A stretch of DNA of 64,000 nt, taken from Chrysaora quinquecirrha (lineage: Eukaryota; Cnidaria; Scyphozoa; Semaeostomeae; Pelagiidae). Within the stretch, counting starts at the first letter, position 1; the number at the start of each line of letters is the position of its first letter. The translations under genes were made by a program, and so were the position numbers. The notes below the pieces were generated by a model. It made no database searches and was not told the DNA's origin. It saw only the letters and a list, made by a program, of their open reading frames with translations. The stretch lies in the NCBI GenBank assembly GCA_014526335.1, contig JACTAT010000022.1, positions 2,052,604 to 2,116,603 on the forward strand, in the 5' to 3' direction. Of this stretch, positions 21,469-55,055 are shown in pieces.

Positions 21469-24400
21469 ATGGGCAAGGAGGAGAAGAGAAAAGAGGCAGA
21501 AGCTGCGGGAAATATGGAAGAAGAAGGCCCACTTGAGGCCGAATGTGTTGAATTTGATTTCACTCCTCCTGATGGTGGATTTGGATGGGTTGTTGTCTTC
21601 GCTGCGTTTTGTGTACAGTTTCTAGTTTTAGGAGTCATGAACAATTTTGGTGTGCTCTTTTCAGAGCTTCTTGTCGAATTCAAACGAGGAAAATCGAGAA
21701 CATGTAAGTTTGATGCAAATTTGGTGTTGATTTAGGCCTACGAATTTTTGTGCTGTAGATTTATGCTTCTGTTTGTGCAGGTAATATTAGAATTTTATTT
21801 TGGCTTGGCAGAGTTTTTCACGGAGGGAGAGCACTGCCTAGTTTTATTTTTCTGGCCGAATACCAAATGAAGCGCTAGACTCTAGATACTCCTTGGGAGA
21901 GTTTTTACTAAACAGCCCCCCTTGATTTTGAATAATTTTGTTTCACGACCAAGAAAGCATTTTGTTGAAAACGGCCATTACATTTTAATCTATTTTGTTA
22001 CTTATTGTAAAATACAAAATATCTATATAAGAAAATGCACCTTTATTCTTGGATTAAATAATTATGTTTGAAATTTTTCTCCAGAGCAGAAAATAACAGG
22101 CGTATGATTAAAGTATCAAATTACAAGCAAGCCCTCAAATTTCTGAAATCGACCGTTAAATTTCACAGAAAGGCCGATTTCTTGTGAAATTTATCAGAAA
22201 TTTTGTTAGTTTCGTAGTTTCCGTGTAACATGGTTACTGTACTTTATAAATTGCGTGGCCGGCATTTGGGAAATTCACGTGAGTTTCCTGTATTGCAAAA
22301 TCACCACAAGAAACAACTGAGATTGTTTTCAGCTTTTCAAAATGTTTTTCGCTGTTGTGGGTCTCGTGACTCGTCTTCAACACAAATTGAATTAATATCT
22401 TTCTTGTTTTTGTCTTTTGAAGCGAAAAGAAAGAAATAAAAGGTTTTAGCAAACAAAAAGAAATTAAATATTAACCACTGAAGGGGCTGCCTTATGCTAC
22501 TCACGTGTTACTGTTCTAGCATCAACCAATCAGCTCGGTTTCAAAATGAATAATTTATTTTTCGAAATTAATTTTCTCAACCATGGTTCGATCTTTTCTA
22601 AATCATGGTTTGATTATGGAATGTTTTCCCAGACACTTTTAGCTGCAATTGCATCATAAATGTTGAATGTTGTACATTCAATTGTTCAAAAATATTTGTA
22701 TCATTTATTTCATATCATTTATTACAGTAACTGGAATCAGTATTTGGGGGGGGGGTTGAAAAACTGTAAAACCACACATTTTTAGCCAAAAATCCTACAA
22801 GCATACATATTTTCCCATAAAACCTCACTAAAATCACAAATTGAAATACTGTAAGTCTTTAAAAAGTCGTTAAAAGTCTTTTGGAAGGAAAAAACCATAA
22901 AACCACACTGAAAATGTTGAAAACTGCAAACCATTATGCTTAATGACCCTCTCAATATCCCCCAAATTCTAGACTTCTGAAAAATCCCTGAAATCAAAAA
23001 ATTTCAAAACTCGTCCATATGAAAGTCTAGATGTTTTAAGTATTGTAGCCAAGTTTGCCATACTTGCATGAAACTCGAACAGTTTAAGATGTTCAAAGAC
23101 TTTGTCACTCTGACTGAAAATTTCACCCCCTGTCAGTTTGTGGTCAACCCAAACTCAAAATGAAGCTTTGCACTCTGAACAGTCAAGAAACTATAAATCT
23201 AGATCTAGACTTAAGTTGAAGTTCCAATGTGCAGAGGCAAAAATTATTGGGGTAATTTTTCAGTCATGTTAGAAATTTTGGAGTTTTCCTTTGAAAATTG
23301 CACAGATTAACACATTTTTGGTTTGTCAAAAATTATGGCCTCTTGACCTTGCCACTCAGAATGTGGCCCCATTGACCCCACCGAATGCTGAATTTCTGCC
23401 ACTGTGGGTATGAGTTCAAATGTATTGTATTATGTTTTTGATTGCATTTTTTCTTTTTAATAGCATGGGTTGGAAGTATAACATATGGACTGATGTTTTG
23501 AGTGGACCAGTATCAACATCACTTTGTGAAAGACTTGGCTGTAGACCAGTTGCTGTACTAGGAGGACTTATAGCTGCTCTTGGCACAATGCTTGCATCAT
23601 TCTCAACAGATATCTATAAAATGTATTTGACGTATGGTTTTCTGTTTGGTGTTGGTGCCAGTATGTGCTACTTCCCGTCAGTAATTATCTTGCCTCAGTA
23701 TTTCCACAAGCACTTGTCACTTGCTAACGGACTTGTATCATGTGGAAGTGGTGTTGGAACAATGGTTATGGGACCAGTAATGCAAGTCATGATTGATAAC
23801 TATGGATGGGTTAATACCGTTCGTTTCTGCAGTGGATTCATGATTGTTGTTACGTTAACAAGTTTAGTTTATCGACCAAGGATTCCACCAATTCCAGCTG
23901 AAATTGCAAAAACAAGGCCATTGTTTGATGTCTCTGTATTCAAGAACAAAGCCTACATTTTGTTTGTTGTTGCACTCTCATTTTTCATGTTGGCTTATTT
24001 TGTTCCATTTGTGCATTTGGTAAGTACCTAGAAAGACTTTCATCATTAGCACTCTTTATTTTATTTGAAATCAAATCAAGGTAAAATGGTGTATATAGAG
24101 TAAGTTGCTAGGATCTCAGGAAGAAGACAAACTTAGGAGACTGGGTGTGATGGTACCATTGCTAGAGTTTGAACTGCAAACCCCAATCTCACTGAGCTCC
24201 TGACACCATTAACTAGCTTGGTAAGCTACCAAAGCACATTCAGCATGCTACAAGCAAGTAAGCATTGGGTCTTTGAGGTAGCCTTGTGCTATTATAGACC
24301 CCAAGATGACCCCTCCCTCTGTCACTATGTACCGATTGAGAAAGGATTTCTAATGTCTTGAGTTCATTATGACTGGGATAAGAGTTGAGTTTCAGCCTGC

Positions 24401-25728
24401 TGAAAGTAAATCAGACAAGATTCACACTCTTCATGTTTGGATCTCTTGCCAAAAGGCCCTGATGGATCAGAGCACACCACAATCGAAATAGGAAATGGGT
24501 CATTGAGGAAATGGGTCTTTCCATGGTCATTTGGCTCAGCCAGACCACACATCATCATTTCTTAAGCTCCATATTATAAAAGGCTACAAAATCCCTGCAT
24601 GCTGTTTGCAGCAAGTTTGTCATGAACTAGATTTAATACTACAGACTTGAAATAATAGAATCTTACTCAAAGCCTCTCTGTTCTCCCACTGAGCTGTATC
24701 ATATGTCCTGTACACTCACTAACGGTTCTCTTCTAGGGTCAAATGGCAATTGAGTATGGTGTTGAAAAGAAGAAAGCTTCACTTCTTGTTGGTTTCATGT
24801 CAGTTTCTTCAACTGTTGGAAGATTATTCTTCGGCAAAATATCTGATCATCCAAAAGTGAACAGACTGTATCTCTATCAACTTGCTCTTTTGTCAATGGG
24901 TATATCAAATACCCTGTGTCCCCTTATGAATGATTATGCTGGTCTGATTGTCTATTGTGTGGCATTCGGATTCTTTGAAGGTTGCTATGTCTGTCAGTGT
25001 GCTGTGTTAACTGGGGATATTGTGGGACGTGAAAAAATGGCACCTGGAGTTGGTACTTTGTTTGGCATTAAGTCAATACCCTTGACGCTTGGACCTCCTA
25101 TTGCAGGTATGTCAAAGAACAATTTAGTAACATTATCATTCTTTGACGTAATGTTTCATTTTACTCGTATGTACCAATAATAACACTAGTTTTATCCCCA
25201 TTTTGGAGAATCTTAAAAGCTGCCAGAAATTTCCACTGAGTTAAAGAGCTTAATAAGTTTTCTGAGCATTTCTCCACATTTGACTTTTGAAATAAAATAT
25301 TGTATTTATCTTCAGGTTTCCTGTATGAAATGTCAAGCTCCTACCAAGTTGCATTCTACATTGCTGGTGCAGTACCTACGCTTGCAGCCTGCTTGCTGTT
25401 TGGTGTACCATTCCTGATGCCTCCTGCAGAACATGAATTCTGGCATCGCAATGATACCATAACCAAGAGAGGTGAAAGTGACAAGAAGCTCATTCCGTCT
25501 GGTTCATCATCTGACTCATCAATGGGAAAACGACAACAAAGCCGACCACCTGTCACAAGAAATGTCCCAAGAATAGCAGTTAGTCCATCCGTTAATTCAT
25601 TACATAGGTATTTTGATATGCCTAAAAGAGTATCTATGGTAGAAATCGGTAGCGTCAGCTCATTGGCAATAATCCCAAGAGACATTGTTGACCCAAACAT
25701 CGCCCCGGACAGAGCATCAATTGTGTAA
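21469..25728 (+). CDS. SLC16-type (monocarboxylate transporter-like) MFS transporter, copy B
   Basis: Four exons: 21469-21703, 23464-24019, 24737-25106 and 25316-25728. The first true ATG in frame is at 21469 (MGKEEKRKEAEAAGN). The TM1 motif TPPDGGFGWVVVFAAFCVQF and the TM4-5 motif YFHKHLSLANGLVSCGSGVG are clear. The TM10-11 region reads LGPPIAG/FLYEMSSSYQVAFYIAG. The C-terminal tail is Ser/Arg-rich and presumably cytoplasmic. Exon 2 is one base short: at a T4 run (23496-23499) SWVGSITYGLMF meets a stop, while one more T continues into LSGPVSTSLCERLGC and makes the exon phase agree with copy A. The repaired length is about 524 residues. In TM8 the MCT1 Asp is Ser but the Arg is kept (SVSSTVGRLFFG), unlike copy A. 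The substrate cannot be told from sequence. Confidence 0.92.
24150..24240 (-). repeat. tRNA-like SINE fragment in transporter B intron 2
   Basis: On the minus strand TTTGGTAGCTTACCAAGCTAG followed later by CAGTTCAAACTC resembles A- and B-box segments, with a diverged spacer. The resemblance is weaker than in the copies at 33 kb. Confidence 0.4.
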
Positions 25729-28700: not shown

Positions 28701-29980
28701 ACTAGACGTTTATTATAGATTTCAAATATGAAGTTACCTAGAATTTCTAAGAATGCAGTTACTCTGTTGCAGACAACTGACCCGATGCATGCTCAATATC
28801 CGAGGCGACTGACATCGCTCGTTTTGATCAGAAAATCCCAAACGGAAACGTTTTGATTGTCAAGGGACATTTCACTCTTCACAAATGCGTACGAGATTTC
28901 CTGCAGATCAAGACGATTTCCAAGAGATTTCCATGAAGATAATAGAATTTCGAGCTAAGCTAAGATGTACGAGTTTTCCAAAGGGTGAATTGCCCAATTG
29001 TTGGACACAGTATTTTCATGGGTAATGGTATGGTAATGGTATGCTTTGTTAATCAAGACGCACTATTTCAACCCGTGGTATTTTACGGTATTTTCAGGAG
29101 AACTTGATATTGCTAGCATTGATTAAAATGTGATACCCTCCGCTCTTACATAACTTAACTTGATGCAGTTATTGTTATACCTCTATGTGCAATGCCTGTG
29201 TTTTTACAACCACAGACCACAGAACGCATTTGCAGTATTTTCAATCAAAGTTTTTTCTTCCGTTTCGCGATGATGACGTCACTTATTTACTCGTGCCAGT
29301 CTCCTGTTTACATTACCTGCATAAAAGGCCTAAAAAGGTGCTTGAAATCTGAAGCAGATGCTTGGTTTTCTGACGGAAATTACTGTAAATATTAATAAAG
29401 CTGACAACCATGGTTGCACACATTGATTCCAGAATGCCTGCTGCAGGCGATAAAACTGTTTTAGTATTCAAAATTTTGGCAGGTGGCAGCTCACATTTGC
29501 TAAAAAGACTCGCGAAACGACAGATTGATGTCGTAAAGAAATCTTCCAAAACAAACGAGTTTGGACAGAAATACGCAAATAAACATTGGTTTTGGATTAC
29601 ATTTCAAACCAAAAAGGTGGTTCCAGATGGGATAACTTGATTAGGGAGTGCAAAGTTGTATTTTGAAGCGTTTTATTGCGTCAAGAAGTCAAGAAAGATG
29701 GTTTTGAAAGCGTAAGGAGAAATTCGGACTTGGTTCTGAGAAAAAGCAAGCCCGCCATGCTGAAGTCTGAATGAATGACAGAGTACAAATTTAGCCAAAA
29801 TGTGTTTTCAGGAACGTGTGCGGACCAGATAACAGGAAAATAGGAAGACAGCAAGCAATTAGGAGCTAAATGACAGCTTTTTAGCTGCTAAATAATGGCT
29901 TTTTAGGTTGTTTTGTTGCTAGAGTTTAAAACAACAAAGATATATTCTAGGCAGGGTGAAAGCTCAAATTTATCCTGAAA
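25729..29980. other. Intergenic region, transporter B to LIM-RapGAP-BTB gene
   Basis: 4.2 kb. It starts with the transporter 3' UTR (AT-rich to about 26.4 kb), then the 67-bp tandem array (26690-27090). From 27.1 to 29.9 kb it is unique-looking DNA. Open frames at 28131-28531 (minus) and 29410-29640 (plus, 76 aa, good Kozak context AACCATGG) show no recognisable family. The second could be a 5' exon or a non-coding transcript. An acceptor-like TATTCTAG at about 29943-29950 may end a 5' UTR intron of the next gene. Confidence 0.5.
26690..27090. repeat. 67-bp tandem repeat array, about 5 copies
   Basis: Near-identical units begin with AATCTCAAATG at 26754, 26821, 26888, 26955 and 27022, a period of 67 bp. 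Each unit contains TTTGACGAGCAATGTTTTGT and the roughly inverted GGTCAAACATTGTTTTCTAT, so each can form a hairpin. The edges decay into diverged CAAACATTG-type sequence from about 26600 to 27130. Related single elements lie in introns of the neighbouring gene (36.66, 37.72 and 43.34 kb). Confidence 0.88.
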
Positions 29981-32900
29981 ATGGCTAAAAACAAAATGAT
30001 TCTACTGCTGACGTTTGCAAGCGTTGTGGAGTCCAATTTATGGCATACGAGGAAAAAATATCCCTCCATAGATTAGCTGAGAGGTCAAATGATTGTCTTT
30101 ATCATAAAGAATGTTTCAAGTGCACAGTTTGTCACAGACAGTTGTCATTACAAAATTATTTTCTTTCCCCAAATAAATATTTCTACTGCATACTACATTG
30201 TGATTTTGAGAATGGTTTTAGTAGCAGTAGCATTGCACGGCAGCTGAAAATGTTCAAAGGGAACTCAAAAGACAAATCAAAGTCGCTGCTACATAATACC
30301 AGCCCTTTTGTATCACAGAGAGATGTGATACCCTCTCAGAACAAAACAGATAATGATCCGCAAATCAGAAATAAGCATTACTGTTTTTGCCAAAATAATG
30401 ACATGATTAGATCATCAGAAGGATTTTGGATTGAATGTAAGACAAAAGAATGCAAAGAAAATAACTATATCAAACATCGAAATACGATGATATTCAAAGA
30501 CTTTACCCATAAAATCTCAGAAAAACCATTTGAATTGGAGCAGTATAATGAACAGATTTATGAAATTGCGTTCAAAGGGATGGAGCATCATAATTATTAT
30601 ATTGTGGATGATGATATCAATGCTGTAGTCTTGAGCTTGAAGCAAGAGTATCTTAATCAAAAAGAATACTTTAGGTTTGTATGCTTCATGTTTGTTTACT
30701 TTCCAAGATCGTTGGGTAAACTGCTATGATATTAAGTTCTAGGGGTGTGGTGGCCTGGTGCCCATCAGGACAATAAGTGTGCACATTGAAAGATCAAAGA
30801 GAAAGCCACCATTTGAAGATGCTGTGGAGTTGTTTTATTGGTACTCTCCAGGGGTGCATGCATGAAGCTCATGAGCAGTTGGGGCATTTGCCCCCAGCCC
30901 CTCTGGTACTATCAAAGTTCCTGATTCTAAAGTATAAGGGCCATGTAAAGTTACTGGAGGTGAAATTTTTCATAAAACTTGAATTTTACAATCCCATTCA
31001 GTCTAAGCACTTATAAAGTCTTAAAATATGAATGATCGTAAACAGGGCCGGATTCCATGGGGGTGTGGAGGCGAAGCATTGGTTTTGATGATTTTACTAG
31101 GTGAATTTTGTTTTTGGTAATTTGGTCTGCAAGTTTTCAAATTTTTTCAGTGCATTAGAGCCCCCTATAGCCTCAACCCCCTAATAAAATTTTCAAGAAC
31201 TGGCCCGGCTCATATGATTAATGATACCAGTGTTCAGATATTAAAACTACTATCTTGGACTAAATTTTGGTTTGGCTGCTTAGGAATTTGATACCAAAAT
31301 GCTGTATCTCAAACAATTTGTAGAAAATGTCATGATTGTAGCCCTTCAAGGTCTATTATTTGAAAAAATAAAGCACTGACATGCTAGTCTTTTTTGCAGG
31401 ATTCTTGTCAGATCATCTTCACATATAGTTGAAGGCCTGCTACCCACATCATGCATTTGTGCAGATAAATACAATGAAGTGGATGTATTGGAGGCATTGA
31501 GAAGAGAGCTAAGACTAACTGGTTCATTTAAACCTCTTGTGGATGAAAATATGAAGAAAAATTATGCAGACTAGATAAGGTTTGCGTACTGTGGTGGATA
31601 AGCTCTACTGTGGTGGGTTATTATGCGTACTGTGGTGGGTTATTATGCTTACTGTGGTGGGGTTTTTTGCGTACTGTGGTGGATAAGCTCTACTGTGGTG
31701 GGTTATTATGTGTACTGTGGTGGGGTTTTTGCGTACTGTGGTGGATAAGCACTACTGTGGTGGGTTATTATGCTTGTTGTGGTGGGGTTTTTTGCGTACT
31801 GTGGTGGATAAGCACTACTGTGGTGGGTTATTATGCTTGATGCGGTGACATTCTTTTGCTGTCTGTGGTCTGTGGTTGATACTCACTATTTGGGTGGTTT
31901 TTTTGCTTCATATTGTATGGATACGGCTTTGAAAAAACAGGTCATTCTTGATCGTCACTGATCTTTTGATCAACTACAAACAGATATTTTGACTATTTAA
32001 ATTCGAAAGTCGAAAATAACCCCAAGACATACAGAAAGTCTTATATTTTCTGAGCCTGGTTTAAAAAAAACATAGCATATAATGAACTCTCAAAGATTGT
32101 AAAAAATCTCAGATAAACCTCAGAAATAATTCTTTCGAAGTGGTTTGGGCCTGCATTATTCCAAATGCGTGAAGTATTAAGAGAAGAAGAATATTTTTAG
32201 ACTAAAAACCGAGGTTAAGCAATAAGACTTTCTGTGTGTTTTTGGGATATTATTTTAGCTAGGACTGTCATCAATTTCTTACAGTTGGTCAAATTTTCAA
32301 ATTTCGAATTTAAATAGTCAAAATATCTGTTTGTAGTTGATCAAAAGATCAGTGACGATCAAAAATGACCTGTTATTTCAAAGCCCTATCCATACAATAT
32401 GAAGCAAAAAAACCACCCAAATAGTGAGTATCAACCACAGACCACAGACAGCAAAAGAATGTCACCGCATCAAGCATAATAACCCACCACAGTGGTGCTT
32501 ATCCACCACAGTACGCAAAAAACCCCACCACAGTACGCATAATAACCCACCACAGTAGAGCTTATCCACCACAGTACGCAAAAAACCCCACCACAACAAG
32601 CATAATAACCCACCACAGTACGCATAATAACCCACCACAGTAGAGCTTATCCACCACAGTACGCAAAAAACCCCACCACATTAAGCATAATAACCCACCA
32701 CAGTACGCATAATAACCCACCACAGTAGAGCTTATCCACCACAGTACGCAAAAAACCCCACCACATTAAGCATAATAACCCACCAGAGTACGCATAATAA
32801 CCCACCACAGTAGAGCTTATCCACCACAGTACGCAAAAAACCCCACCACAACAAGCATAATAACCCACCACAGTACGCATAATAACCCACCACAGTACGC

Positions 32901-35900
32901 ATAATAACCCACCACAGTAGAGCTTATCCACCACAGTACGCAAAAAACCCCACCACAGTACGCAAAATACACCACCACAGTAGTGCGTATCCACCACAGT
33001 AGTGCGTATAGATTCGCTAGCGTGAGGTTTGTGCAACACTTAACTCGTTATTCTTCAAACTTTTGACCTTTGAATGCAAAACTCTAAAAAGATGTAGCCG
33101 GTGTGAATTTGAGGTTGAGTGACTTTGAGAAGAGTCAGCAGAATTCAGATTGTTGAGGTCAACGATTCAAATCCTGCCATTAGATTGTATATTATATCAT
33201 GAATGGCCAACACTAGGATAGATTATTCCACGAGTTGCATACGACAATAGATGGGATTTGAACCTGGACTGCATGACCAGAGAGCCGATGATGCTTCTAC
33301 TGAGCTATAGAGCTTGATGAAATTGCCAACTAACTCTCCAAGAGTTACTTGAAGATTTCATCATACAGCCCAACACTGTTCTCCCATTTAACTTTTTTGT
33401 GTTCCCTCTATTTTGAGCCTTCTTCAGCACCATACATATTTATATATATTTGGCATGAATGAATAACACTGGGATAGATTTTTCCACAAGTGGCATACCA
33501 CAGTAGATGTGATTTGAACCTGGACTGCATGACGAGAGAATCAACAATGTTTCGTACATAGCCAGCTATAGAGCTCATTGAAATCGCTTATTAAATTGTA
33601 TATACTTCTTGCCAAAGATTCCTCACCTTGGTCGCACTTTCACAAACTAGCATAACATAATGGAGCGTATAGCCTAATAGATGGCAACGTTGCTCATTAC
33701 GACAAACTACTGGAAAAACGTTCTCATAAATTTGCCAGTGCTGAATCATAGGAAGCCGTTGACATTTTGCCCCCTTACCCAACACTTAATCTTTGCCTGT
33801 GAAGGAAACGAAAACTATTGAGGTAACAAGATTTGAAGATATCATGGTTTTAGCTTTAACTGTTACTGTGAGCTAAAAAGGAACTTATTCTTTTATTTCT
33901 AAGAAGTAAGAACTGAGATGACAGCGGAAGATATTGCAGTGATAAGCATCAATTATTTGTTCCGTTTATGTTTGACAATTTGTTTCTCAGTTTAAAATCT
34001 CCTTGCATGTCCAGGCACAACGATTCTCGTTTTAAATTCAAGTCAAACTGGCTTCCTTTTAAGTTTTGAAAATCACGCGACATTCATTTCACTCTAGATC
34101 TCCAGATCAAGTATTAATGTTCAGTTTTTCCGTATTTTTGTTCCTTGTTTCTTTCCCCTTTTTCTTACAGAAGGGGAAACCTTAATGACGCGAAACTGTC
34201 TCATTTCTGAGGGGCTACAATGTTGATTAAAAGGTCGAGAGCGCTTTGCAATTGCAACCACTTCTCGGCAATGCTCAACATTGCTCGACTTTTTGTTTAA
34301 GGCCGATTTTTTGTTTAATGTTGTTAAATGTCAAGATCAAGTGCATTCGCTAAATTAATTGGTTGTTATTGCCTAAAATAAAATAGGCTCCCCCTTCCCT
34401 CGTTAAATCTATTGCTGTTCATTGTCTGGGCACCTGTGGGTAGTTTTCCACAGAGCTTATGATCTTCCCGATCGCTTATACGTTAAGCCTGGCGTTTTAG
34501 TATGCGACATAAGATGACCGCTCATCATTATTCCGATTTTTCAAGCTAAGCCTTTTCGTTGTTGTTCATCATGGCGCGCGGATCGCTTTGTATTTTGACA
34601 GAGCGTGCGAAGTCAAGGTGTTTGTTGAACAAGACCTAACGTAAACGTACAGTAAAGTAGAAATTGAATCGTAGCTACTTTTCAAACCGAAAGTTCGACA
34701 AGAGTGGATTAAGATTAAGTTCATGATACACCTTGGTAGTCGACATTTTTAAAAATTTGACATTGAAAAATGATTGAGGGTGCAAAATTTCGCGGTCAAA
34801 AATCCTGTAAATCTTCAAACTTTTCTTTGCTATTAAATCAACACCGTGAACTCCAGAAGAATGATCATTTGCCTCCAAACTGAGCTTAGGATGATGAAGT
34901 CGAAAATGTAGTGATCATCGTATGTCGCTTATATAGCCTTATTAGACTGTGGCATAGCCTGTGCTGTGATACTGCCTGTGACAGGCCACCGATACTGATG
35001 TTTCACATATGAGAAAGTAATGGTTGTGGCACCTGCAGCACCTTTGATTCTTACTACCACGGCACTGCAGACATCATGCCGTAGCCGCAAGCGACATCTA
35101 TTGCGCAGTGCCGAAGCCTGTTAGGGCTGTATGGAAGCCAGTCTTAAGCTATGGCTAAACTAGGAGACCTGTCGCGCGCGAAATTGTATTCAGCATGTCT
35201 CCCAGGGTGGCTAATCATGCGAATGACAAGTGAGCAACATGTCCCCCGAGCCGTGGAGACAAGAAATTCTTCTACTGTGTCCCAGAAACATTTTCGTGTC
35301 TCTTGCTACAAATTTTGTCGCGTGCTACAAAGATTCCGAGGTGGCTAAACTGGGAGACACGGAGGGGACATCTATGTCGCGTGCGACATGTCTCCTAGTT
35401 TAGCAAGGCCTTAAGGCTGTTGTTTCTTATATGTCTGCTACTTAAGGGAGGAATCTTTCTTTATAACAGTTTTCTATTACATTTAATTTTATTTTGTTTG
35501 CGCGTAAGAACTGTACTTATTCTTGAAAGTGTAGTTTCGAGTAATTTAAAGCTACAAAACAACCTTTTCTGATCACTTCTATTCTTTCAGATAATGCACA
35601 AAAGTGAATTTAAAGTTGGGTTATTATTCATCAAAGACGGTCAAGAAACTGAAGAGGAGTTCTTCACAAATTCAGATCACACTCCTGGGTTCGAGGAATT
35701 TCTTTCTTTCCTTGGTGACAAAGTTTTACTCAAAGGTTTTACTGGGTTTAATGGAGGACTGGATACGAGTCATGATTTAACTGGTGAAACAGCAATTTTT
35801 ACAAAATGGAATAATAATGAATTCATGTTTCATGTTTCAACTTTGTTGCCAACTGATGAGCATGATGATCAAAAGGTTTGTTTCATTCGTCATATTTTTT

Positions 35901-38900
35901 ATTAATGTAATGGTATCGGCTAGAATCTAAATCGCTGTTATTCCTTAACTTAGCGCCCTCCCTCGAATAAGCGCCCCTTTGTACTGGGCTGCCCATCAGG
36001 TTGGTCCCTGACATCCCTTAAATAGTGTGTTTTATTGTTTCTTTATTGACAGCTGGTTTTCACAATAGCTTAATATGTGGAGCTTTTCATACCTGCGTAC
36101 AACTACGTATACAACTTTGTGACTAAACTGCATGTGCAAGCTTTTGATGCGGGGCATTAAGAGACATCTTTTGCTAGTTGCTGCAAAAATCTTACTTTTC
36201 ATCAGACGTTAGATTATTCATAAGTCTTTAAATAGCTGCTCCTCTTTGAGACGGATTTTTTTAATAAGTGCCTGGGCGCTTAATCGAGGAAGCACTCTAT
36301 TTTACAGATACGGCAAGGCTGGCTAAACATGCGAAGGACAAGCGGGCAACATGTCCCCCGAGCCGCAGAAGCAACAAATGTTTCTCTTGTCTCGCAGAAA
36401 CATTTGCGTGTATCTCGCTACACATTTGTCGCGCTCTTCACCGTTTCCGAGGTGGCTAAACTGAGAGACATTGAGGACACATGTCACGCACGATAATGGT
36501 GAACGCGACATGTTTCCAAGATTAGGTAGACCTTAACTGATTTAACGCCTGGCTAAACTAGAAGACATGTCGCGCACGACTTTGATGTCCCGTCGGTGCC
36601 TCCAAGTTTAGCCACCTCGGAAACTTTGTATTTGTTCCTCATTTTTTGCTAGCAGCAGGCAAAAATGTTTGAAGAGCAATGTTTTGCGACCAGGCCATAT
36701 AGTAAAACATTTTGCTTAACAAGTAAATTTCAGGTGTTAGGCAAACAATGTTGAATCGTTTGACCAGAGCCTAAGTCATGACTAATTCTAAGCCTATTTA
36801 CTAATTCTAAGCCTATTTCCTTCTCAGCTACAAAGAAAACGACATATTGGAAACGACATAGTTTGCATTGTATTTTTATCATCACCAAATGCAGTTTTAT
36901 TCCAAATGCAATCAAATCAAATTTCCTTCATATTTATATCGTCGTCAGACCAGTAAGCACTAACAACAACAACAACAACAACAACAGCTCCGCAAAACAG
37001 TATCAAGTGAGTTCATTTAATTAAGACGTTCTACACGAGGAACTAAAATTTTATAATTTTCACGAGTTCTCACGAACTAGACTTAATACACGAATCTCAT
37101 GTTCCGCGCATGAAATCTAGACCAACAACCTCAACATTTTGAGCAGCTTTTCAAACAACAGCAACTGAAGGTAACTTCGATAACTGGGACTTGCGTAACA
37201 AATCTACTGACGAGCAATGTGTAATGTTTCGCCGTTGCCCGTTTGGTCAATGAAAAACTAAGCCTTTTACACGTTTTTTATCAGGAACCTTTGGTTTGAG
37301 TTGAGGCTGGAGTTCCTTAATTTTTTAACAAAATGAGGCTGAAAGTTCCTTATAATGTTCCTTGTCGTGGGATATGTATAAATACTTATTTTTACAGCAA
37401 ATACATATAAACTATTCTTCATTTCTAACTTTGAGTATAAATGGAGTCTTTTGGGGAAGAACGATGGGAAATATATTGTACTTCTGTTCATTTTTCGCAC
37501 AAACTGCCTTGTTCTTTAAAAAAGAGTTTCTTAGTTTTTCATCCGAGCCTCAACAGTTCCTTAAAGTTCCTTAATTTTTTGGGAGATTTCAGCCTCGAGT
37601 TCCTTATAAAGGTGTTCCTTTTAAAGAAAACGTGTATTCTTTAAACTCGCGTTACAAAACACTTTTCCGACCCGTAAGTTTGTTTAATGATTGAAGATTT
37701 GTGGCCTAAGTTTCTAAGGCTGTGTCCAAACGATCCCACGCATATTGTTGGTCAAAATTTGAAATTTTGTTTGCCAAATAAAATGTTTGATCTTTTGAGC
37801 CCGTCGCAAAATATTGCTTGCCAGATATTGCTTGCTATCAAAAAGCAGAAAAATGTTTTTTGAAAACATTGCCAAGCAGATTTTACTGTTTAATGACGTG
37901 CCAAACGGTCAAACATTGGAAACGTGAAATTGTAAGACGTGAAATTGTAAAAGAAATGTCAAATATTTGATGAGCAATGTTTGATCATTTAGTGAGGGCC
38001 TAAGAAAATACTCCCTTTGATAAATGACCGTTAGAAACTTTATTTCTGAACATCTTTTTTGTTGTTGTGTTAAGGAAGGGTGTTTGTGAACTGTTTCAAT
38101 GCTCTGATATGTTTTGTTAAAATTATTCTCTATTCCTTTAGGTTGCTGTCGTCTCCAAGTCATTAGTCCTTCCGTTTGGTCCACCGTTACAAAGTGGTTA
38201 CTTTTGTAAGGTCAGTTTTGCTTTGTTTATTTCTTAAGCCCCTTGAGGCTGCCGGGCTGAGCCAAAGAGGCTCTTTCCTATACAGTATTTCAATCGCTTC
38301 TAGTTTTCTCAATGAGTTTAACAAAATAGTCGTCGCAGTTATTCTCGTTGAAATTGTGGTTTTTTACTTTTTTCAAATCTGTAAAATTCAATTAATATTA
38401 AAGCTTTATTTTGTTCTTGTTCATTCATTCCAATTTCACAAAGTTTCATTTGTCATTTTCCTCATAGGACCCTTTAATAAGGTGAAATGACTTTAGCATT
38501 CATCGTTCTAGGATTTCTTATCTCTTTGTAGCACTGGTTTTTCTTTTTCACAAGTAAACCCACAGCCAACTGTAAAAGGGAATTTTATATTTCATTGACT
38601 AGTCGTGTCTTTGGAGGTTGAAAAATAACCAATCAATCTGCATTATTGCTAACATGTGATACATTTCTGTAATCTGATCACACGTTTGGGTGTATTACAA
38701 ACAAAACGTAGTTCCCCTACATACTATTTAAAACAGGCAAAGGGAAATATTTAGAGTTCGTATCTCTTTCGACCTTCTATCATTTTCCCCATTTCAATCC
38801 CTGGTACCATATAGGGACCGTATATAGATTAACTAAGTGTAAAGGTTTTTACCAACAGGTCTCCACATCTCTCTAAACGAGTGTTTTTCATAGCATGACC

Positions 38901-41900
38901 TGTACAATTCTATGAAATTCTATTGAACCGTTTTTGGAAGGGGTAGCATGGAAATGAATTGAACAATAACAACCACGATAACTTCATTCACTCATGTGTG
39001 GTTTTTACACTTCATTTCTGTCCGTGTGAGAAAACGATCTCCTTCTGTCTACACAGAACCGGCCCTTAAGGAGTTTTTGGAACTGCAATTGACTCATAAG
39101 AGGTCCAAAAATAAGGTACTTAAAGAACTAGGCCTTGAGCTAGGTCCTTTTTGAAAAATGCGTTTAACTGTGACTTTTATATGTGTCTTTCAACTTATGT
39201 ATAACGATTTTTGTGTCCCAATAGGATGACGATTTCAAAAACTGGATAATGACAAAAATCGTGAATGGTGAAAGAGCTAGTTACAGGTCACCTAAATTTG
39301 CTTCCATGCAGGTAAATATTTCATTTTAATATAGTATTCTTTTTGTATTTATTATTTATTGATGGACCTGGTGATTTCTAAAAAAAATTTAAAGGGGGGG
39401 GGCTCCAGGGGCAACGTCATAACGGAGACAGTGATTCTTTGTAGGCACAGCCATGTTTTCATCGATGCAGATATGATAGCCTAGTGGAATGGGTGGTCAA
39501 GCTTTTCAGTCAGTTCTTGAAGCCCAACCGCTTTCCCCTCCTTGAAATCACCACTGATCAGGATAGTACTTGCTTCAATAATAGAGATGCTTATTGGTCG
39601 TTGTCTTGTATGTGAAATCGCTAAAACTTCATTGATAATTCTGTTGTTTTATTCGTAGGAGAGAACCAGAAAGCAGATGTTGAGTGAATTAATAAATGAT
39701 CAAATAAACAATGAATCATTAACAGTTAAAACTAAAGACAAGAACAGCTCGCTTCAAAAGTTTTTTAGTCAGAGGTATTTATTAATGATAATTATGTCTA
39801 ATTCTGGTTATGGATTTTCTAAACTTTATGATCAGCTCTGATATCCCTCTTAATCTTTCTTTTAGCAAGCAAAATGGCAAGTCATCTCATGCTGGAAGCA
39901 ATAAAAAGTAAGAAAAAATTATCATCTTAGCAAGTCTTTCCAGTAAGTCCTCCCCTCGAATTAGCCCCCAACCTTGACCCCGTACCCAAACTATATTAAG
40001 TAACCCCCAGTAAAATTCCCAAGCAAAAGCAAAGGAATGAGTTGCTGCTGTTGTAAAAAGTGTCTTTCCTTTAAAGGGATAAGACCGAACGCTTTCTTGT
40101 GTGATAGATTTTCAAAAAGATCAAATTAGAAATTTTTTCCTTCATGGTTATAACTGATCCAAAATAAGCAACAAAATCGCATTTCAAACAATCATCACTT
40201 TTTTAGACCCAGAATTTATCTGTCGGTCATTATTGCCCTTATTTATTTTTCGTCTTAACTCTTATTTAATTCTTAATCTTTGTCCTCATTAAAATTAAGT
40301 AAAGTAATGAAGGTTCTTTTTATCAGGTCACTTTTATTTCCCGACTGGATGCAACAAAGTTTCGATGATTCTGAACAATTACAAAAAGATTTAACTTCAG
40401 CATATAATGGAATTTTCAATCATGTTTATGATGTTTTGTTTGTTGTCGGTAAGTGAAAATATTTTTGCGGAACATTTCTGTCACAAGTTAACATACAGGC
40501 TCACTACACAGCCCTACTTCACTGTTTAGTATAAGCTTGTGATCCCGAGGGGAGGAGTATGTAACAGGACTGGAAACTAGCTTAATTTTTAGTTAATCTA
40601 TGCAAATTATAAATTTCCTTTTTGTATACAAGTCTGTGTTGTAATAGACATTTAAGATGATCTGGTCAAAATACTCCTGGAAAGATCGAATTTTTAAAAG
40701 CCTCATTGCGAATCAGATGCAGCAAAGAGGCAATCATTATCATTCTGAGTCTCAGAAAAAGTGATCTTTAAGTTAAAGCTGGATTATTAGAGCAATAGCT
40801 TGCAAGGTTTCCAAATGATTTTTTCTTTGCTTCCGAGGAATGGTCCATCGTAAATCCCTCCCGGCAGTCAAATCAATTTTGGCAGCAAGAAGCAGGCAAG
40901 TGATTAGAAATTAATCGACTTTATGTTAAAGTAACGTTAACTGACTGACTGACTGACTGACTGACTGACTGACTGACTGACTGACTGACTGACTGACTGA
41001 CTGACTGACTGACTGACTGACTGACAGGACGATACTTTAGATACCATTGTATTTTAGATCTTTTTTTATTGAATTTTTCTAGGATATTCCATGAAATGTT
41101 CTATGAAGCCTCTGAGAGTCGATCAACTAAAAGTTCACCGAGTTCTTCTCCCGGCATTTTACGAAAACAAGCGGTTGGGAAAAAGCTGCTCTTCACCAAC
41201 CATGTCATCTGGGTTGAAAAAGAGGCTATCATTTGAAAGATTAAAGAAAAGGTCACACAGTCTTCGTAAAGATGATGATTTGGAATGTACTTCAGCTATG
41301 TGTACTGTTAGTGAGGTAATTTATTGGTTTTCTGTAGCAGTCGATTGATTGATTTATTGATTGATAGTTAGAGTTAGTATGGCCGTGTGAGGTATTGGGA
41401 TCGAATCTCATCGGAACCACTTTCGACAAGCCTACAGTCAACTCAGCTGTCCATCCTTCCGAGATACGCAAATGAGTACCCAGGGTATTCGTTCTAGAAC
41501 ATCAATCTTGGGGCACTAGCTACATGTCCACGTCAGCTTTATATGTGTCAGAACCCTCGGTCTGCTTTAACAAATAAAGATTGCTTGCTTGGTTGCTTGC
41601 TCTGAGTCCGGAAAGGCGTACAGTCTCCTCCCTGATAATATTAAACGTCAGAAACAATCTTGACAAACCTTTGATTGCACAAAAAAAGTCGACATCAATC
41701 AGTGAAACCGAAGGCTTTTGAGTCCAAGTGAGAAAACGAACTCTTTATGTCTACATAGTACCGCCCTTTTGGATTTGACGCGGAGAGATCCATAAAGTCC
41801 TTAACTGTCTTTTGAATCAGCTTGCAGATACAGCGACCAACAACGAACTGTTTACGTTTAGAAAAAACCGGCTGTTTTTTGTGGACAGATTCCAAAACCA

Positions 41901-44737
41901 CGAAAGCTTTACAAGTGTCCAGCTCAGCAAGTAGAGCATTAGCTTCTATAGCCAAAAGTTGCAGCCTCGAGATCTGTCTTTGCCTTATCAATCTTGTACG
42001 CATTTTGCAAAATAAACCCTGACATTACTTGTGTTTACATTTTCTATTTTGCAGTACCTTGTGACCGAATTTGAACCAGAAGAATTCAGTGTTTTATTGG
42101 AATATTTACATACGGGAATGTGCATTATTCACGCTGAAATTCTGCCCAGCCTCCTTTCCATTGCTGATCATTACGAGATTGCATCATTAGCTACTGCTTG
42201 TCTAGAATCGATTGATGATACGATTGATATTTATAATGTAAGTTGCTTTTCATTTCAAGTGTTTTCTAAATCAGTAAGTTTTATGCTGCGATTTGAACTT
42301 TCATGATTTATGCATTTATCAGACAGATATTTCCATAAAGCACGAAACTTTAAATCGGTGGCTAAACTAGAAGACATGTCGTCTGGGACATTGTATTTGG
42401 TGCGTCTCCCAGGGTGGCTAAACGTGCAAGTGACAAGCGAGCAACATGTCCACCGAGTCGCGGAGACAAGAAATATTTCTGTTGTCTCCCAGCAACATTT
42501 TGCGTGTCTATCACTGCAAATTTTGTCGTGCGCTACAAAGTTTCCAAGGTGGTTAAACTGGGAGACATTGAGGGGACATGTCGCACGTGACAATGTCGTG
42601 CGCGACATGTCTCCTAGTTTAGCCATGCTTGAAGTCACAGAGCAAAACTTGTTTTTTTTTCTTCTGATGATAATCAATGCTGTTCTGCCCAGCACTGAGC
42701 ATTATCGTTTATATGCAAGCATTAGAAATTTAAAGCCATCAATAATTATTCATATACCGTATGTCTTCGATTGAGCGCCCAGGCCGCTTTTCTCCAAACC
42801 CGTCTCTAAGAGGAGCAATTATTAGCTCTTTACTTTCATACTTTGCTTACTTTAGGTTTGTCCTCTTCTTGTGTTAACTCGGAAATTCACAAAAAGAAGC
42901 AATTTGGCACTAGAATTACAACACAAAGTAAGCGTCTATTCTTAAGTTTTCATTTTATGTTTGATAAGTACAATTCTTAAATAAGGATTATCTGGTGTAG
43001 ATGATATTTTTTACATTCTATAGTCAGACCTTATGTTTTTTCGTAGCTGTAGTCAGTGCTGTATTATTAATTAAATAAAGTTAATTTCTATTGAGTTTAG
43101 CCAATAAGAAAATAACTGCAAATTTATTTCTTGCAGATTCTTGAGTTTTTGGAGAATCATAGTGATGAAATATTCAAAGCATTTGATGTTGCTTCATTAA
43201 CAGAAGATTGTTTGTCAATTATTTTATCATTAAATTTAAAGGTATACTTTTTAAATATTATTTCTTTTACTATGTCATTGGTTAAACTGATTAAATTTCG
43301 TCTTAGATCTTCACTGATTGTCATTCTATCAGGTAACAAAACGAATCACAAGCAAAAATTGTTTGACGAGCAATGTTTGCGTCGTTGGCACATTCTTAGG
43401 TCGGCCAAACGATCAAACATTGTTTGTCAAACATCTGAAATTCGCTTATCAAACAAAATGTTTAAAGTTTGACCACATCACAAAACATTGCACATCAAAC
43501 ATTTTTTGCTTACGGCAAACAGAAAATGTGTTCAGTTTTTCAAAAGCATTGCACAGCAAGTTCTACTTCTCAAGCAATGTTTTATGACGTGGCTAAACAT
43601 CTGCAAACAAATTATTAGATTGTTCGACCAAACAGTCAAACATTGTCTGTAAGGCAAATCTCAAATGTTTAACGAACAATGCCTAAGAGTTTTGTCTAGA
43701 ATTGCAGCTCAGCAGTTAGAATTTCGTAACTTTTAGTTGTTGGCAGTTTGTAATTTGTGAAGAATCAATCTCAAATTTGATACAACTGTCTTGTTTTATA
43801 GATACAAGAAATCGATAAATTCAGAGTTGTTGCAAGTTGGTTAGATCGAAACCTCGAGCATGGTATTACTTTTAGATTCCACTTTTTGCATTAATCTTCT
43901 TGGTTTGATAAACAGAAAGCTTCGTTTTTTGAATTGTTAATATTCACCTTGTAAAATTTGGACTTTTTTTATCTCTTTTGCGTTTATGGTATATCATCAT
44001 GCGTTCATTTTTTTTAAGTGTTCGAGATGGATCCATAAACAAACTATGCTATCACGAAATATCATTACCCATCGCCTAAATTCCCCTTTTCTATTTTGTT
44101 TTAGGTTTAAATGATCAAGATTGCCTTCTCAGAGATTCTCTGCTTTATAACATCGATCTTAAAAAGATTACAACTGACGATTTAGTCCAGGTAAATACAG
44201 AGAATTTTCTAGTATGCCTATTCAAACCCAGGCTGTTTTCAATGCTGCCAGTCCTGTTCAAATCAATTAATATATATTGATTTTGTTGATCAACGCCTTG
44301 GCCAAACGTCGCCAGCTCTGCACCCAACTCCTTCTCTATGTTTGCTGCTGCTTGAACGGGGCTGGCTAGACGTAGCCTCGAATATAGTCAACATTTTCAG
44401 CTATCTCTCGCATCAAAAAGTTTTTCTTGACTAGTGTTCCAACAGTGAACCACTTTTCTAATAAGCATGACTCGGCTGGCCAAACAAAACCAACATTTGA
44501 AATGTTGTGTAAATTTCTTTATGCAGATCAATCTTCAGCTAAAATTATATTGGCTCATCCAACAAGATGGCCAAATGTTTTCTACGTTTGGTGGGCTCAA
44601 GGAATGGGAATGGGTTTAAGGTGTTTTTGTACTTATTGTTCTTTGTTTTTTAATCTTTTTAGGAGGTGAAAGGAAGTGGATTATTTCACCAATCACAACT
44701 TGAAGCTGAGCTTGCGAGTAGATGGGAAAAGGCATGA
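29981..44737 (+). CDS. LIM-RapGAP-BTB-BACK multidomain protein
   Basis: Sixteen exons: 29981-30674, 31400-31579, 35591-35875, 36828-36952, 38142-38210, 39225-39311, 39659-39774, 39866-39907, 40327-40448, 41083-41315, 42055-42237, 42856-42927, 43137-43241, 43802-43862, 44105-44190 and 44663-44737. All have GT-AG borders and matching phases, giving about 845 residues. Residues 10-65 form one LIM domain (CKRCG, HKECFKCTVC, YCILHC). Residues about 205-510 are a RapGAP domain: NYYIVDDDINAVVLSLKQE, GGLDTSHDLTGETA, FMFHVSTLLP, then RKRHIGNDIV carrying the asparagine thumb (about N396), and FKNWIMTKIVNGERA. Residues about 545-715 resemble BTB (YDVLFVVG, VHRVLLPAFY, EEFSVLLEYLHTG) with a basic Ser-rich insert. 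BACK-like helices follow (VCPLLVLTRKF, ILEFLENHSDEIF). Inferred role: Rap GTPase off-switch with cytoskeletal (LIM) and possibly Cullin-3 (BTB-BACK) contacts. Frame breaks lie near 29993, 31572 and 36895. I know no described family with this order. Confidence 0.85.
31580..33020. mobile_element. Foldback element with minisatellite arms (CCACCACAGT units)
   Basis: The left arm is about 31580-32055 and the right arm about 32215-33020, reverse complements of each other, with a loop of about 160 bp. The outer parts are arrays of 19-23 bp units all beginning CCACCACAGT (right) or its complement ACTGTGGTGG (left): about 270 bp left and 535 bp right. The inner parts are single-copy, about 190 bp, nearly identical (for example GTGAGTATCAACCACAGACC and GATCAAAAGATCAGTGACGA). 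There is no transposase. Open frames through the array (YCGGLLCVLWW type) are repeat artefacts. It sits in intron 2 of the LIM-RapGAP-BTB gene and starts exactly at the exon border. Foldback (FB-like) elements have this arm design. Confidence 0.8.
33190..33577 (-). repeat. Two neighbouring tRNA-derived SINE copies
   Basis: Minus-strand copies at 33190-33314 and 33450-33577. Each reads, 5' to 3', an A-box region (CTATAGCTCAGTAG in the first), a spacer, a B box (CCAGGTTCAAATCCCATCTA) and a tail ending in CTAGTGTTGGCCATTCATGA or its variant. The head-tail order is the same in both, and related pieces lie at 3.2-3.4 and 62.8 kb. Confidence 0.75.
35143..35415. mobile_element. MITE family 'GGCTAAACTAGGAGAC', copy 1
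   Basis: The left end CTTAAGCTATGGCTAAACTA and the reverse complement of the right end (CTTAAGGCCTTGCTAAACTA) match, and both continue with GGAGAC(A/C)TGTCGC. The element is about 273 bp, with internal CTCCCAGGGTGGCTAA and CCGAGGTGGCTAAACTGGGA. It lies in intron 2 of the LIM-RapGAP-BTB gene. Confidence 0.75.
35957..36293. mobile_element. MITE-like element with TCGAATAAGCGCCC termini
   Basis: The left end CCTCGAATAAGCGCCCCTTT and the reverse complement of the right end (CCTCGATTAAGCGCCCAGGC) agree, about 340 bp apart, in intron 3 of the LIM-RapGAP-BTB gene. Solo or truncated relatives can be seen near 39950-40010 and 42765-42830. Confidence 0.6.
36305..36615. mobile_element. MITE family 'GGCTAAACTAGGAGAC', copy 2 plus a fragment
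   Basis: 36305-36536 is a diverged copy that keeps the internal GGACAAGCGGGCAACATGTC and CCGAGGTGGCTAAACTGAGA strings. It is followed at about 36545-36615 by another family end, CTGGCTAAACTAGAAGACAT. Both lie in intron 3 of the LIM-RapGAP-BTB gene. Confidence 0.6.
36660..36775. repeat. CAAACATTG-family dispersed element, copy in intron 3
   Basis: Carries AAATGTTTGAAGAGCAATGT, then an inverted-type half ending AACAATGTTGAATCGTTTGACC. It is related to the 67-bp unit at 26.7-27.1 kb. Confidence 0.55.
37715..38002. mobile_element. CAAACATTG-family MITE, longer copy in intron 4
   Basis: Bounded by TTCTAAGGCTGTGTCCAAACGATC on the left and GATCATTTAGTGAGGGCCTAAG on the right, which are partial reverse complements. 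The interior repeats AATGTTTGATC, GCAAAATATTGCTTGCC and GGTCAAACATTGG. No coding capacity was found. Confidence 0.55.
40935..41026. repeat. (ACTG)n microsatellite
   Basis: An essentially perfect ACTG/CTGA tetranucleotide run of about 90 bp lies in intron 9 of the LIM-RapGAP-BTB gene, just upstream of exon 10. Confidence 0.95.
41385..41485 (+). repeat. tRNA-like SINE fragment
   Basis: GTATTGGGATCGAATCTCATCGG resembles a B box (GGATCGAATCT) preceded by GTTAGTATGGCCGTGTGAGG. It lies in intron 10 of the LIM-RapGAP-BTB gene. The A box is unclear. Confidence 0.35.
42356..42634. mobile_element. MITE family 'GGCTAAACTAGGAGAC', copy 3
   Basis: The left end GGTGGCTAAACTAGAAGACA and the right end CATGTCTCCTAGTTTAGCCA are inverted. 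The internal strings CTCCCAGGGTGGCTAAACGT and CCAAGGTGGTTAAACTGGGA match the copy at 35.1 kb along its length. It lies in intron 11 of the LIM-RapGAP-BTB gene. Confidence 0.75.
43340..43695. repeat. CAAACATTG-family dispersed element(s) in intron 13
   Basis: Several inverted and direct GTTTGACGAGCAATGTTTGC, GATCAAACATTGTTTGTCAA and CAAACATTGTCTG strings lie over about 350 bp. They are probably two overlapping or nested copies of the family also seen at 26.7, 36.7 and 37.7 kb. Confidence 0.55.
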
Positions 44738-52551: not shown

Positions 52552-54176
52552 TTATGGTATCTTCTTTGTTCTTCTACAACACTTTGACGGTTGAACTTGC
52601 CAGTTATAATCAAATGAAGGTATTTTTGAAAACTCCACTTCACATAAACGATTATTTACTGTAAGTTCATGATATTTTTTATACATATCATCAATTGATT
52701 GCTTGTGAGAGACGATATGTTTGTTATTGCATCCTCTTGACTTATATTCGGTATCAAATCTGACATCGTGGAATCTGTTCAAAAGAACTGGTGCAAGCCA
52801 TGCTCCTGCAAAACAAAGAGATTGAGGATTAAGAGGGAGACATCACTGCTACTGTACATATTTTAATTAAATTTCTTATGGTCTTCTTTTTGTGGATTTT
52901 GGCAGTGCAGGGGCCTCTAGGATGAAAAACACAAATTTGGCACAAATGGCATCAACCATTACTGCTGCAAAGTTTGGTGGCCTTGGTTCTATCAGTCATA
53001 TGGCCCTCCTACCCCCTCCAAGATCCAATGGTCCAAAAATTGTATAAGAAGCAGTTCTTATTTTGACTGGGCAGCTCTCAGCAGTGGCATATTCAAGGCT
53101 GAAGCCAAAGGGGGCTAGGGGCACAGTGCCCCAAAATATGTTTACAAAAGTTCTATTGTTCTTTCAACAATAGACATAAGCTCTATTGTTCCTTTAACAA
53201 TAGGACTTTTTTACAAGATTTGATTCCAATGTCTATTATCAACAATTTCATCTTCCATGCATCATGCCCCTCAGTGCGAGTGACATGGGGCTTGGTGATG
53301 GTCTGTAAGAGACAGTTCTTGGAGCCCTCTTACTGTATGTTCCAGCCTTAAATACTATGCCCCCAAAACACCCTGGTTTGATTGTTGTCAATGGAATTGA
53401 CCCCTTACCAACTGCGACATCCTCATTATTGTAAATCTGCAGCATATCTGATATATTTGCCATGTAATTGACAAGATCTTGACTCAATAAATAACCACCA
53501 CCATTGGCATATGGAAGATATTTATCACAAAGTATCCAGTTCTTTTCAGCCCATTTTCCAATTTTCTTCACATTCGCATCTCCACGGAAAAACCCCCAAT
53601 AAATTCTTTCAAACTTTTCTCTTGCTGCTAAATCTTTGACAAGAACATTTGTTCTGACAAAAGAATCATCATCAACTTTTAAAATGAAATTGCTTTGAAC
53701 ATTATTCTTGACCCAGATAAAAGTTTTCAATAATTTCATCGTTAACGAATAATAATTATCTTCATGATTTGATAAAAGTAGGAGATCCCCATGTTGATTT
53801 CTCTCTCTAATTAGATTCTCTAAAAGTTCATTATCCAAACCAGAGGTGCCAATGACAAATCTGTGCCCCACTTTCACACTATTTGGAACTTGAAATGATA
53901 ACCATGTCTCTCGAATTGCTTTTCTCTTTTCATACCCGTTTGGTGAAGAAAGAATAATGATGAACATAAAAAAATCCAACTTTTCCTTTGTTCCTTGTAT
54001 GCTGGTATCAAATTTTGAAAGAGGGTTTCGTATTTCCCGGCGAGAAACATTATTTTTTCATAATTATCTTGTTTCATGTAACTTTTTATCAGCAATAATA
54101 AAAGAATAAAGTTTATTCCGATGCTTATTATCATTCCATTTCTCATTCGCCAAAATCTGCTTAAAATAAACTTCAT
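52552..54176 (-). CDS. B3GALT6: Beta-1,3-galactosyltransferase 6 (GAG linker galactosyltransferase II)
   Basis: Two exons on the minus strand: 53409-54176 (start ATG at 54176) and 52552-52805, together about 340 residues. It is a type II Golgi enzyme: a short cytosolic tail, then a membrane anchor (MIISIGINFILLLLLIK). The GT31 blocks follow: KRKAIRETW, FVIGTSGLDNELLE, HGDLLLL, FILKVDDDSFVRTN with the DxD-type metal site, RIYWGFFRGDANV, LPYANGGGYLLS and NNEDVAVG. The second exon gives AWLAP, FDTEYKSRGCNN, HKQSIDDM and the C-terminal SKCCRRTKKIP. These are specific to B3GALT6, which adds the second galactose of the proteoglycan linker tetrasaccharide. The frame breaks at a T4 run (53981-53984, plus strand): one more base joins KEQRKK to LDFFMFIIILSS. 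The intron holds CTATTGTT...AACAATAG hairpins near 53150-53205. Confidence 0.93.
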
Positions 54177-55055
54177 TTTATTAAGATCAATAAAAATTAC
54201 TGCAAATTTTCACACACGTATTTCAAAATAAATTGATCATAATGCGCATGCTCTTACTCGATCGTTTTGCTTCTCGTGATGAAATCTGCAAATTTGGGCA
54301 AAGAAAAACTTGCCTAAAAGTTTCTTAATTTTACCTCTGTGCTATACTGGGTCTTTTAATGAGTTGCCTATATCTATTACTTTTCAGATACTTGATAAAA
54401 TGTTTCTTTGTTAGCTCTGAAATTCCTTCAGACAGACTTTTTCTGACATCCATGTGTTTTTTCGTTGATCTTTTATTCAAAATGTTGTCGTCACCAGTTA
54501 GCTTTGGATACCGGAAGTACACAACAACAAAATCAACCAATCACAGAGCTCGAAAGTGGCATAAGTTATTTTGGAGATTCCCGCCAAAGAGACGAACCGA
54601 ATTCATTTCAGGGGGTTTCCTATTCACACCGCTACATTAAACTTCAGCAGCAAATTGAAACGAAACTAAAATTTTTCACCGAAAACTAATCAAAGCAATT
54701 CAATACTAGATTTTATGCCACTTAAGGTATTTAGAAAACTTAATTTCTTTTTTTGCTCGTTTTTCGCATAATTTACATAATCTGTTTCGTTTGGAGTAAC
54801 CTCCGTCTCACAAAGTCCTTCAGCATTCCGGTGAGATTTGAGAGCATGCGCGGGCAAGTTTTCTGTCTGAACTAACGTGAATGAGGATCGAGCGAAACAG
54901 TGGCCTGGTTTGAGTTTGTAACAACGTAAGTAATAAGGAAAAAGCTGGATTTTTGTGACTTATTTCTCATAAAATACCATCAGAGATATTGATCTAATAA
55001 AGCAACAAACAGATATCGTGGAGAGGATTTTTTGGTTTCTTTTTGATGGCCGGCT
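54177..55055. promoter_or_regulatory. Divergent promoter region, B3GALT6 / SAP130
   Basis: 879 bp between start codons on opposite strands. Open frames at 54331-54689 on both strands have no recognisable features. No positioned TATA box was seen. Promoter function is inferred from gene orientation. Confidence 0.5.

Follow-up and report, generated by a model that had tools for sequence, protein, structure and literature searches.

What protein is encoded at 29981–44737 on the plus strand of a 64,000-nucleotide window from Chrysaora quinquecirrha, does the stretch hold one gene or two, and has its family been described before? The window (C168:2052604–2116603 of a 328-Mb assembly in 740 contigs) had received an initial annotation proposing a fusion of LIM, RapGAP, BTB and BACK-like domains. 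Exon joining and comparison with relatives revealed that the LIM-RapGAP-BTB gene is spliced and runs on the plus strand over this interval, and that it is a cnidarian radish-type member of the family known from the fly memory gene radish. We consider it very probable that the product is a radish-type Rap GTPase-activating protein (GAP) with a LIM domain for docking and a BTB-BACK tail, and the breaks in its reading frame are most likely sequencing errors.

Two versions of the encoded chain were used: a first one of 16 exons and 845 residues, with an X marking every one of three frame breaks recognised at that stage, and a final one of 17 exons and 883 residues, with an X at four frame breaks and no base restored. 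The domain order is LIM, Rap-GAP dimerization domain, Rap_GAP, BTB and a BACK-like C-terminal part. Pfam analysis of the 883-residue chain revealed Rap_GAP at 187.9 bits (residues 317–504), Rap-GAP_dimer at 43.9 bits, LIM at 25.1 bits against a cut-off of 22.9, and BTB at 54.3 bits in two stretches; the BTB score had been 31.2 bits in the first version and rose because the exon model was corrected. The LIM, RapGAP and BTB domains proposed initially were thus borne out, all above the Pfam cut-off and in the claimed order. A pattern scan located all eight zinc ligands of the LIM domain at residues 13–73, and the asparagine-thumb block RKRHIGND is intact at residues 390–397. The best match among solved structures, obtained with the first version, was Rap1GAP (1srq, E 1.5e-65), and in the window chain Pfam returned no GoLoco, CNH or Kelch match with E values up to 1. 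The chain aligned to two relatives over 99% of its length with identities of 65% and 57%, which is more than chance would give.

The homologue search scored 7989 candidates, of which 2439 had E values up to 1e-5 and the best 120 were listed; two further listings held the best 120 of 1257 and the best 120 of 388. Relatives of the same architecture came from hydrozoans, arthropods, Priapulus, hemichordates and a ctenophore, and the listed proteins include those of Hydractinia, Hydra, Clytia, the anthozoan Oculina (P0101), many arthropods, Priapulus, Saccoglossus, Ptychodera and the ctenophore Bolinopsis (P0073). P0001, P0002, Hydractinia P0005, Hydra P0006 and Clytia P0007 showed 35–65% identity over 95–99% of the chain, all five with the LIM ligand pattern and the thumb block, and differed from the window chain in sequence divergence and in small linker-exon differences. 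The Hydractinia entry is named 'uncharacterized' and the Hydra entry 'signal-induced proliferation-associated 1-like protein 1', whereas entries named rsh or radish are all arthropod and include P0032, P0054, P0061, P0063, P0102 and P0149. Further relatives are amphioxus P0140 and P0142, in which the pattern scan found no LIM pattern, and P0187 and P0159, joined as a pair with 100/100 support in the tree described below. P0159 has LIM, Rap_GAP and BTB matches, and P0187, whose prefix scpid presumably denotes the sponge Sycon, stops within Rap_GAP.

These relatives also bear on whether two adjacent genes, one LIM-RapGAP and the other BTB-BACK, were falsely joined. Linker exons 7–9 are poorly conserved and 20 of the 120 listed relatives have Rap_GAP without an annotated BTB, as such a false junction would allow; 100 of the 120 listed relatives, however, carry Rap_GAP and BTB in one chain, 14 of them having LIM, Rap_GAP and BTB together, and the domain order is identical in ctenophore P0073. 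Relative P0003 has an 827-aa open reading frame (ORF) from within LIM to the end of BACK, its longest contig being 2846 nt, a size as expected of a complementary DNA. The occurrence of both domains in one chain and the P0003 ORF led us to reject two joined genes as highly improbable, and the single fused LIM-RapGAP-BTB-BACK chain proposed for the locus stands.

The suggestion that the family might be undescribed, made on condition that no published family had the same architecture, did not hold. PMC7928361 (2021) describes Drosophila Radish as a protein with POZ, Rap GTPase-activating and LIM domains, reported for D. melanogaster, and relatives are many; this description, the relatives and the GAP-region tree together ruled out a new protein family. 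The Drosophila gene radish (rsh) was formerly CG15720 and is now CG42628 (PMC3166323), and the D. busckii radish entry is named CG42629. The fly literature gives Radish a function in neurons and consolidated memory (PMC3166323, PMC9369046) and 23 potential PKA sites (PMC9369046), and PMC4617343 calls it a 'Rap GTPase activating protein'. In the parts covered, PMC11801723 treats radish in fly behaviour only, and PMC3305314 brings up Rap-GAP solely in connection with a PXN-like protein of Capsaspora. A literature search reaching a minority of subscription papers found no published account of this family that spans early animals.

Among the named fly proteins, D. virilis rsh (P0032) falls on the window gene's side of the tree and aligns with it in the same order, from the dimerization domain through Rap_GAP and a BTB that also contains an insert to the C-terminal part. 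It differs in having 470 residues between the first two LIM cysteines and the remaining LIM, against 25 in the window chain. The corresponding distance from the first cysteine pair to the rest of LIM is 480 residues in P0009 and 133 in P0063, both also arthropod radish proteins, and with gaps of 470–480 residues, as in P0032 and P0009, a LIM domain can escape a domain search. Eight-ligand LIM domains were found in 18 of the 25 radish-type rows scanned, the window chain included, and are not universal.

For the phylogenetic analysis, 52 GAP regions hand-picked from 207 proteins were combined with that of the window (53 rows, IQ-TREE, none lost at extraction). One branch, with support of 100/100, divided 35 BTB-type rows from 8 Rap1GAP rows; 10 unlabelled rows fell on the radish side, as did the window gene. 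The latter grouped with P0001 as its sister (100/98), and both belong to a cluster of eight rows (100/100) in which every named member is a hydrozoan. A long branch leads to the cnidarian GAP regions, the window's own branch being short, and the deep order is unsure because the long branches of amphioxus and cnidarians may meet falsely. The same assembly carries another Rap_GAP gene on C124, which appears from its scores to lean towards Rap1GAP rather than the radish type, though not clearly: its summed bits (L002) were 140.5, 113.9 and 109.8 against the Rap1GAP rows P0200, P0193 and P0196, and 111.0, 95.5 and 88.2 against the radish-type rows P0101, P0059 and P0004. The nemertean Rap1GAP-type protein P0200 has a LIM domain and two GoLoco stretches, so LIM may predate the split between Rap1GAP and the radish type.

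The exon model of the window gene, in which the helical tail of exon 7 and the BACK-like fold of exons 13–16 are taken from a structure model of relative P0004, is as follows.

29981–30674, plus strand: exon 1, start ATG, LIM (eight ligands; coding 30016–30198), Cys/GFWIEC segment and start of the Rap-GAP dimerization domain; break at A run 29987–29991
31400–31579, plus strand: exon 2, remainder of the dimerization domain; break near A run 31557–31561
35591–35875, plus strand: exon 3, first half of Rap_GAP
36828–37006, plus strand: exon 4, Rap_GAP with the asparagine-thumb block RKRHIGND at 36834–36857; break near T run 36873–36877
38142–38210, plus strand: exon 5, Rap_GAP
39225–39311, plus strand: exon 6, end of Rap_GAP
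39659–39774, plus strand: exon 7, helical tail behind Rap_GAP and linker
39866–39907, plus strand: exon 8, short linker exon SKQNGKSSHAGSNK, with a similar stretch in P0004 and none in P0001 or P0002
40327–40448, plus strand: exon 9, linker and first BTB strand (VYDVLFVVG)
40838–40895, plus strand: exon 10, BTB core MVHRKSLPAVKSILAARS, followed by a GC-AG intron
41083–41315, plus strand: exon 11, BTB helix and Ser/Lys/Arg-rich insert within BTB; break near A run 41180–41184
42055–42237, plus strand: exon 12, second part of BTB
42856–42927, plus strand: exon 13, BACK-like helices
43137–43241, plus strand: exon 14, BACK-like helices
43802–43862, plus strand: exon 15, BACK-like helices
44105–44190, plus strand: exon 16, BACK-like helices
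44663–44737, plus strand: exon 17, C-terminus with stop codon TGA at 44735–44737

This model departs from the initial one, which had 16 exons, GT-AG borders throughout, about 845 residues and matching phases at every junction. The 58-nt exon 10 had been overlooked; it has an AG acceptor and a GC donor, and its peptide of core BTB residues pairs with SLPAVKSILAARS of relative P0001. Comparison with relatives extended exon 4 to 37006, with a GTGAGT donor after TATCAA; a donor at 36952 was ruled out, since 16 alignment rows have residues given by the longer exon only. With both changes the chain reaches 883 residues, 845 fitting a model that lacks them, and phases are interrupted by the frame breaks in exons 1, 2, 4 and 11. 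The single stop at the chain end was confirmed as the TGA listed above, with an AATAAA downstream at 44858.

In exon 1 the LIM frame is out of reach from the ATG at 29981: it holds a TAA at 29986, its first ATG being at 30040, within LIM. The exon 2 frame continuing from LIM runs into a TAG at 31572, the frame leading to exon 3 being a different one. Shifts fall between VCIVF and IITKC in exon 4 and between KQAVGK and SCSSP in exon 11. An upstream start-codon exon in place of the exon 1 break was ruled out: AG dinucleotides between 29940 and 30025 stand only at 29949, 29953, 29961 and 30020, the TAA bars entry from the first three, and the last falls after the first LIM cysteine.

The breaks raise the alternative that this gene copy was inactivated recently, in which case all four would be real and no full-length protein would be made. 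They stand in the assembly as given, and a 1.4-kb inverted-repeat set starts at 31581, right after the end of exon 2 at 31579. Every break, however, has a 5-base A or T run beside it (see the list), and short A/T runs are a typical place for read errors; comparison with relatives suggests that the breaks lie inside these runs, 18 A/T runs of at least five bases occurring in the coding sequence and covering 92 of its 2647 bases. The pieced frames contain no internal stop, and read errors are preferred because splice borders are intact across the 17-exon model and the tree branch is short. We therefore regard the four breaks as most likely assembly or sequencing errors, and an inactivated copy as quite unlikely.

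An adjacent Galactosyl_T ORF (53251–54209, minus strand, 115.8 bits) has, by eye, a probable membrane anchor upstream in another frame. This frame change may be an intron or a further frame break of the assembly; the latter would fit assembly-wide errors and speak against inactivation. The inverted-repeat set covers 31581–33001 at the start of intron 2, includes for example arms at 31722–32017 and 32293–32588 that are 96% complementary, and is possibly a mobile element.

Rap1GAP works as a dimer, and the thumb asparagine of its RKRHIGND block enters Rap. By analogy, the window protein would dimerize through its Rap-GAP dimerization domain and insert its thumb asparagine into Rap-GTP, which would speed hydrolysis, and the lowered Rap-GTP would dampen the signals that Rap sends to adhesion and the cytoskeleton. 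The LIM domain may dock the protein on partners. The BTB-BACK part may form dimers or recruit CUL3, recruitment by a KLHL11-like tail being plausible and the ubiquitin-ligase targeting proposed initially being putative, and the basic Ser-rich insert carried by BTB, with its PKA-like motifs, could serve as a phosphorylation-controlled loop. Basic-basic-x-Ser/Thr motifs follow the BTB helix in eight of the nine rows where the stretch was located (KRLS and KKRS in the window chain; none in this stretch of P0032; P0003 outside the nine), such motifs being short and common by chance and the counts being without a control.

If CUL3 recruitment were the main task, the protein would be a substrate adaptor and Rap_GAP its substrate-binding module, not a catalyst. 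All 25 radish-type rows scanned carry the thumb block, some in slightly varied form (KKRH, HVGND), and this points to catalysis. Behind the BTB helix, the loop that often contacts CUL3 holds a long insert, and anthozoan P0101 ends shortly past BTB in the alignment, without a BACK match. A role mainly as a CUL3 adaptor is accordingly unlikely.

Several observations nevertheless weigh against a catalytic radish-type GAP with a BTB-BACK tail. BACK, one of the domains claimed initially, reached 11.1 bits in the window chain, under its cut-off of 20.9, and exceeded it in two of the nine relatives scanned alongside (P0010 and P0073); a BTB-BACK fold of the KLHL11/KBTBD2 type is seen in the predicted structure of P0004. 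That model represents the relative and not the window chain, and its BTB-BACK match has a high root-mean-square deviation of 9.9 over 233 residues. Four frame breaks within one gene could also be explained by a recent pseudogene. The literature search turned up no radish-type member assayed for GAP activity or for binding to CUL3, and PMC9369046 states as unknown whether Radish's putative GTPase-activator function plays a part in memory.

Among better-known systems, Rap1GAP (RAP1GAP; PDB 1srq, 3brw) shares the dimerization domain, the Rap_GAP fold and the same thumb block, but four of four rows scanned from its group lack a BTB match, it occupies the separate branch supported at 100/100, and GoLoco is present in three of the four (P0200, P0193 and P0196; not P0189). 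KLHL11/KBTBD2-type proteins share the BTB-BACK fold of the P0004 model, whereas the window chain has no Kelch match and ends after its BACK-like part. GARNL3 has a CNH domain besides RapGAP, and the window chain, without a CNH match, differs from it at the level of this domain.

No vertebrate or echinoderm radish-type protein was among the matches listed (best 120 of 2439, 1257 and 388). The eight vertebrate rows in the last of these listings all lack BTB, and five have GoLoco; loss of the radish type in vertebrates is offered as a suggestion only. In the review PMC9369046, the human orthologue considered most likely for Radish is GARNL3. Because the eight vertebrate rows lack BTB, this assignment comes into question and would seem to deserve rechecking. 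A broader reading, tentative and on balance doubtful, holds radish-type proteins to be an ancient animal family of RapGAPs and CUL3 adaptors that tie Rap inactivation to ubiquitination, that originated before ctenophores, sponges and the remaining animals diverged, and that were lost in vertebrates, leaving no true human Radish orthologue and GARNL3 as the nearest paralogue. The Radish domain set long predates insects, since cnidarians, whose nervous systems are nerve nets, already have it, and the relatives in Hydra, Clytia and Hydractinia offer a natural system for the role of the LIM and BTB-BACK parts.

Further features were observed in the window. A gacatgtctcctagtttagcca-like motif, seen by eye in both orientations in three introns of the gene (35150–35420, 36310–36620 and 42360–42630), is probably a dispersed repeat family. 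Upstream of the gene, 8471–9160 (plus strand) encodes a TRAF-type MATH domain (142 bits), and two MFS transporter genes lie in opposite orientation at 16456–18150 (minus strand) and 23414–25177 (plus strand), with MFS_1 in four ORFs and, by eye, a monocarboxylate-transporter-like character.
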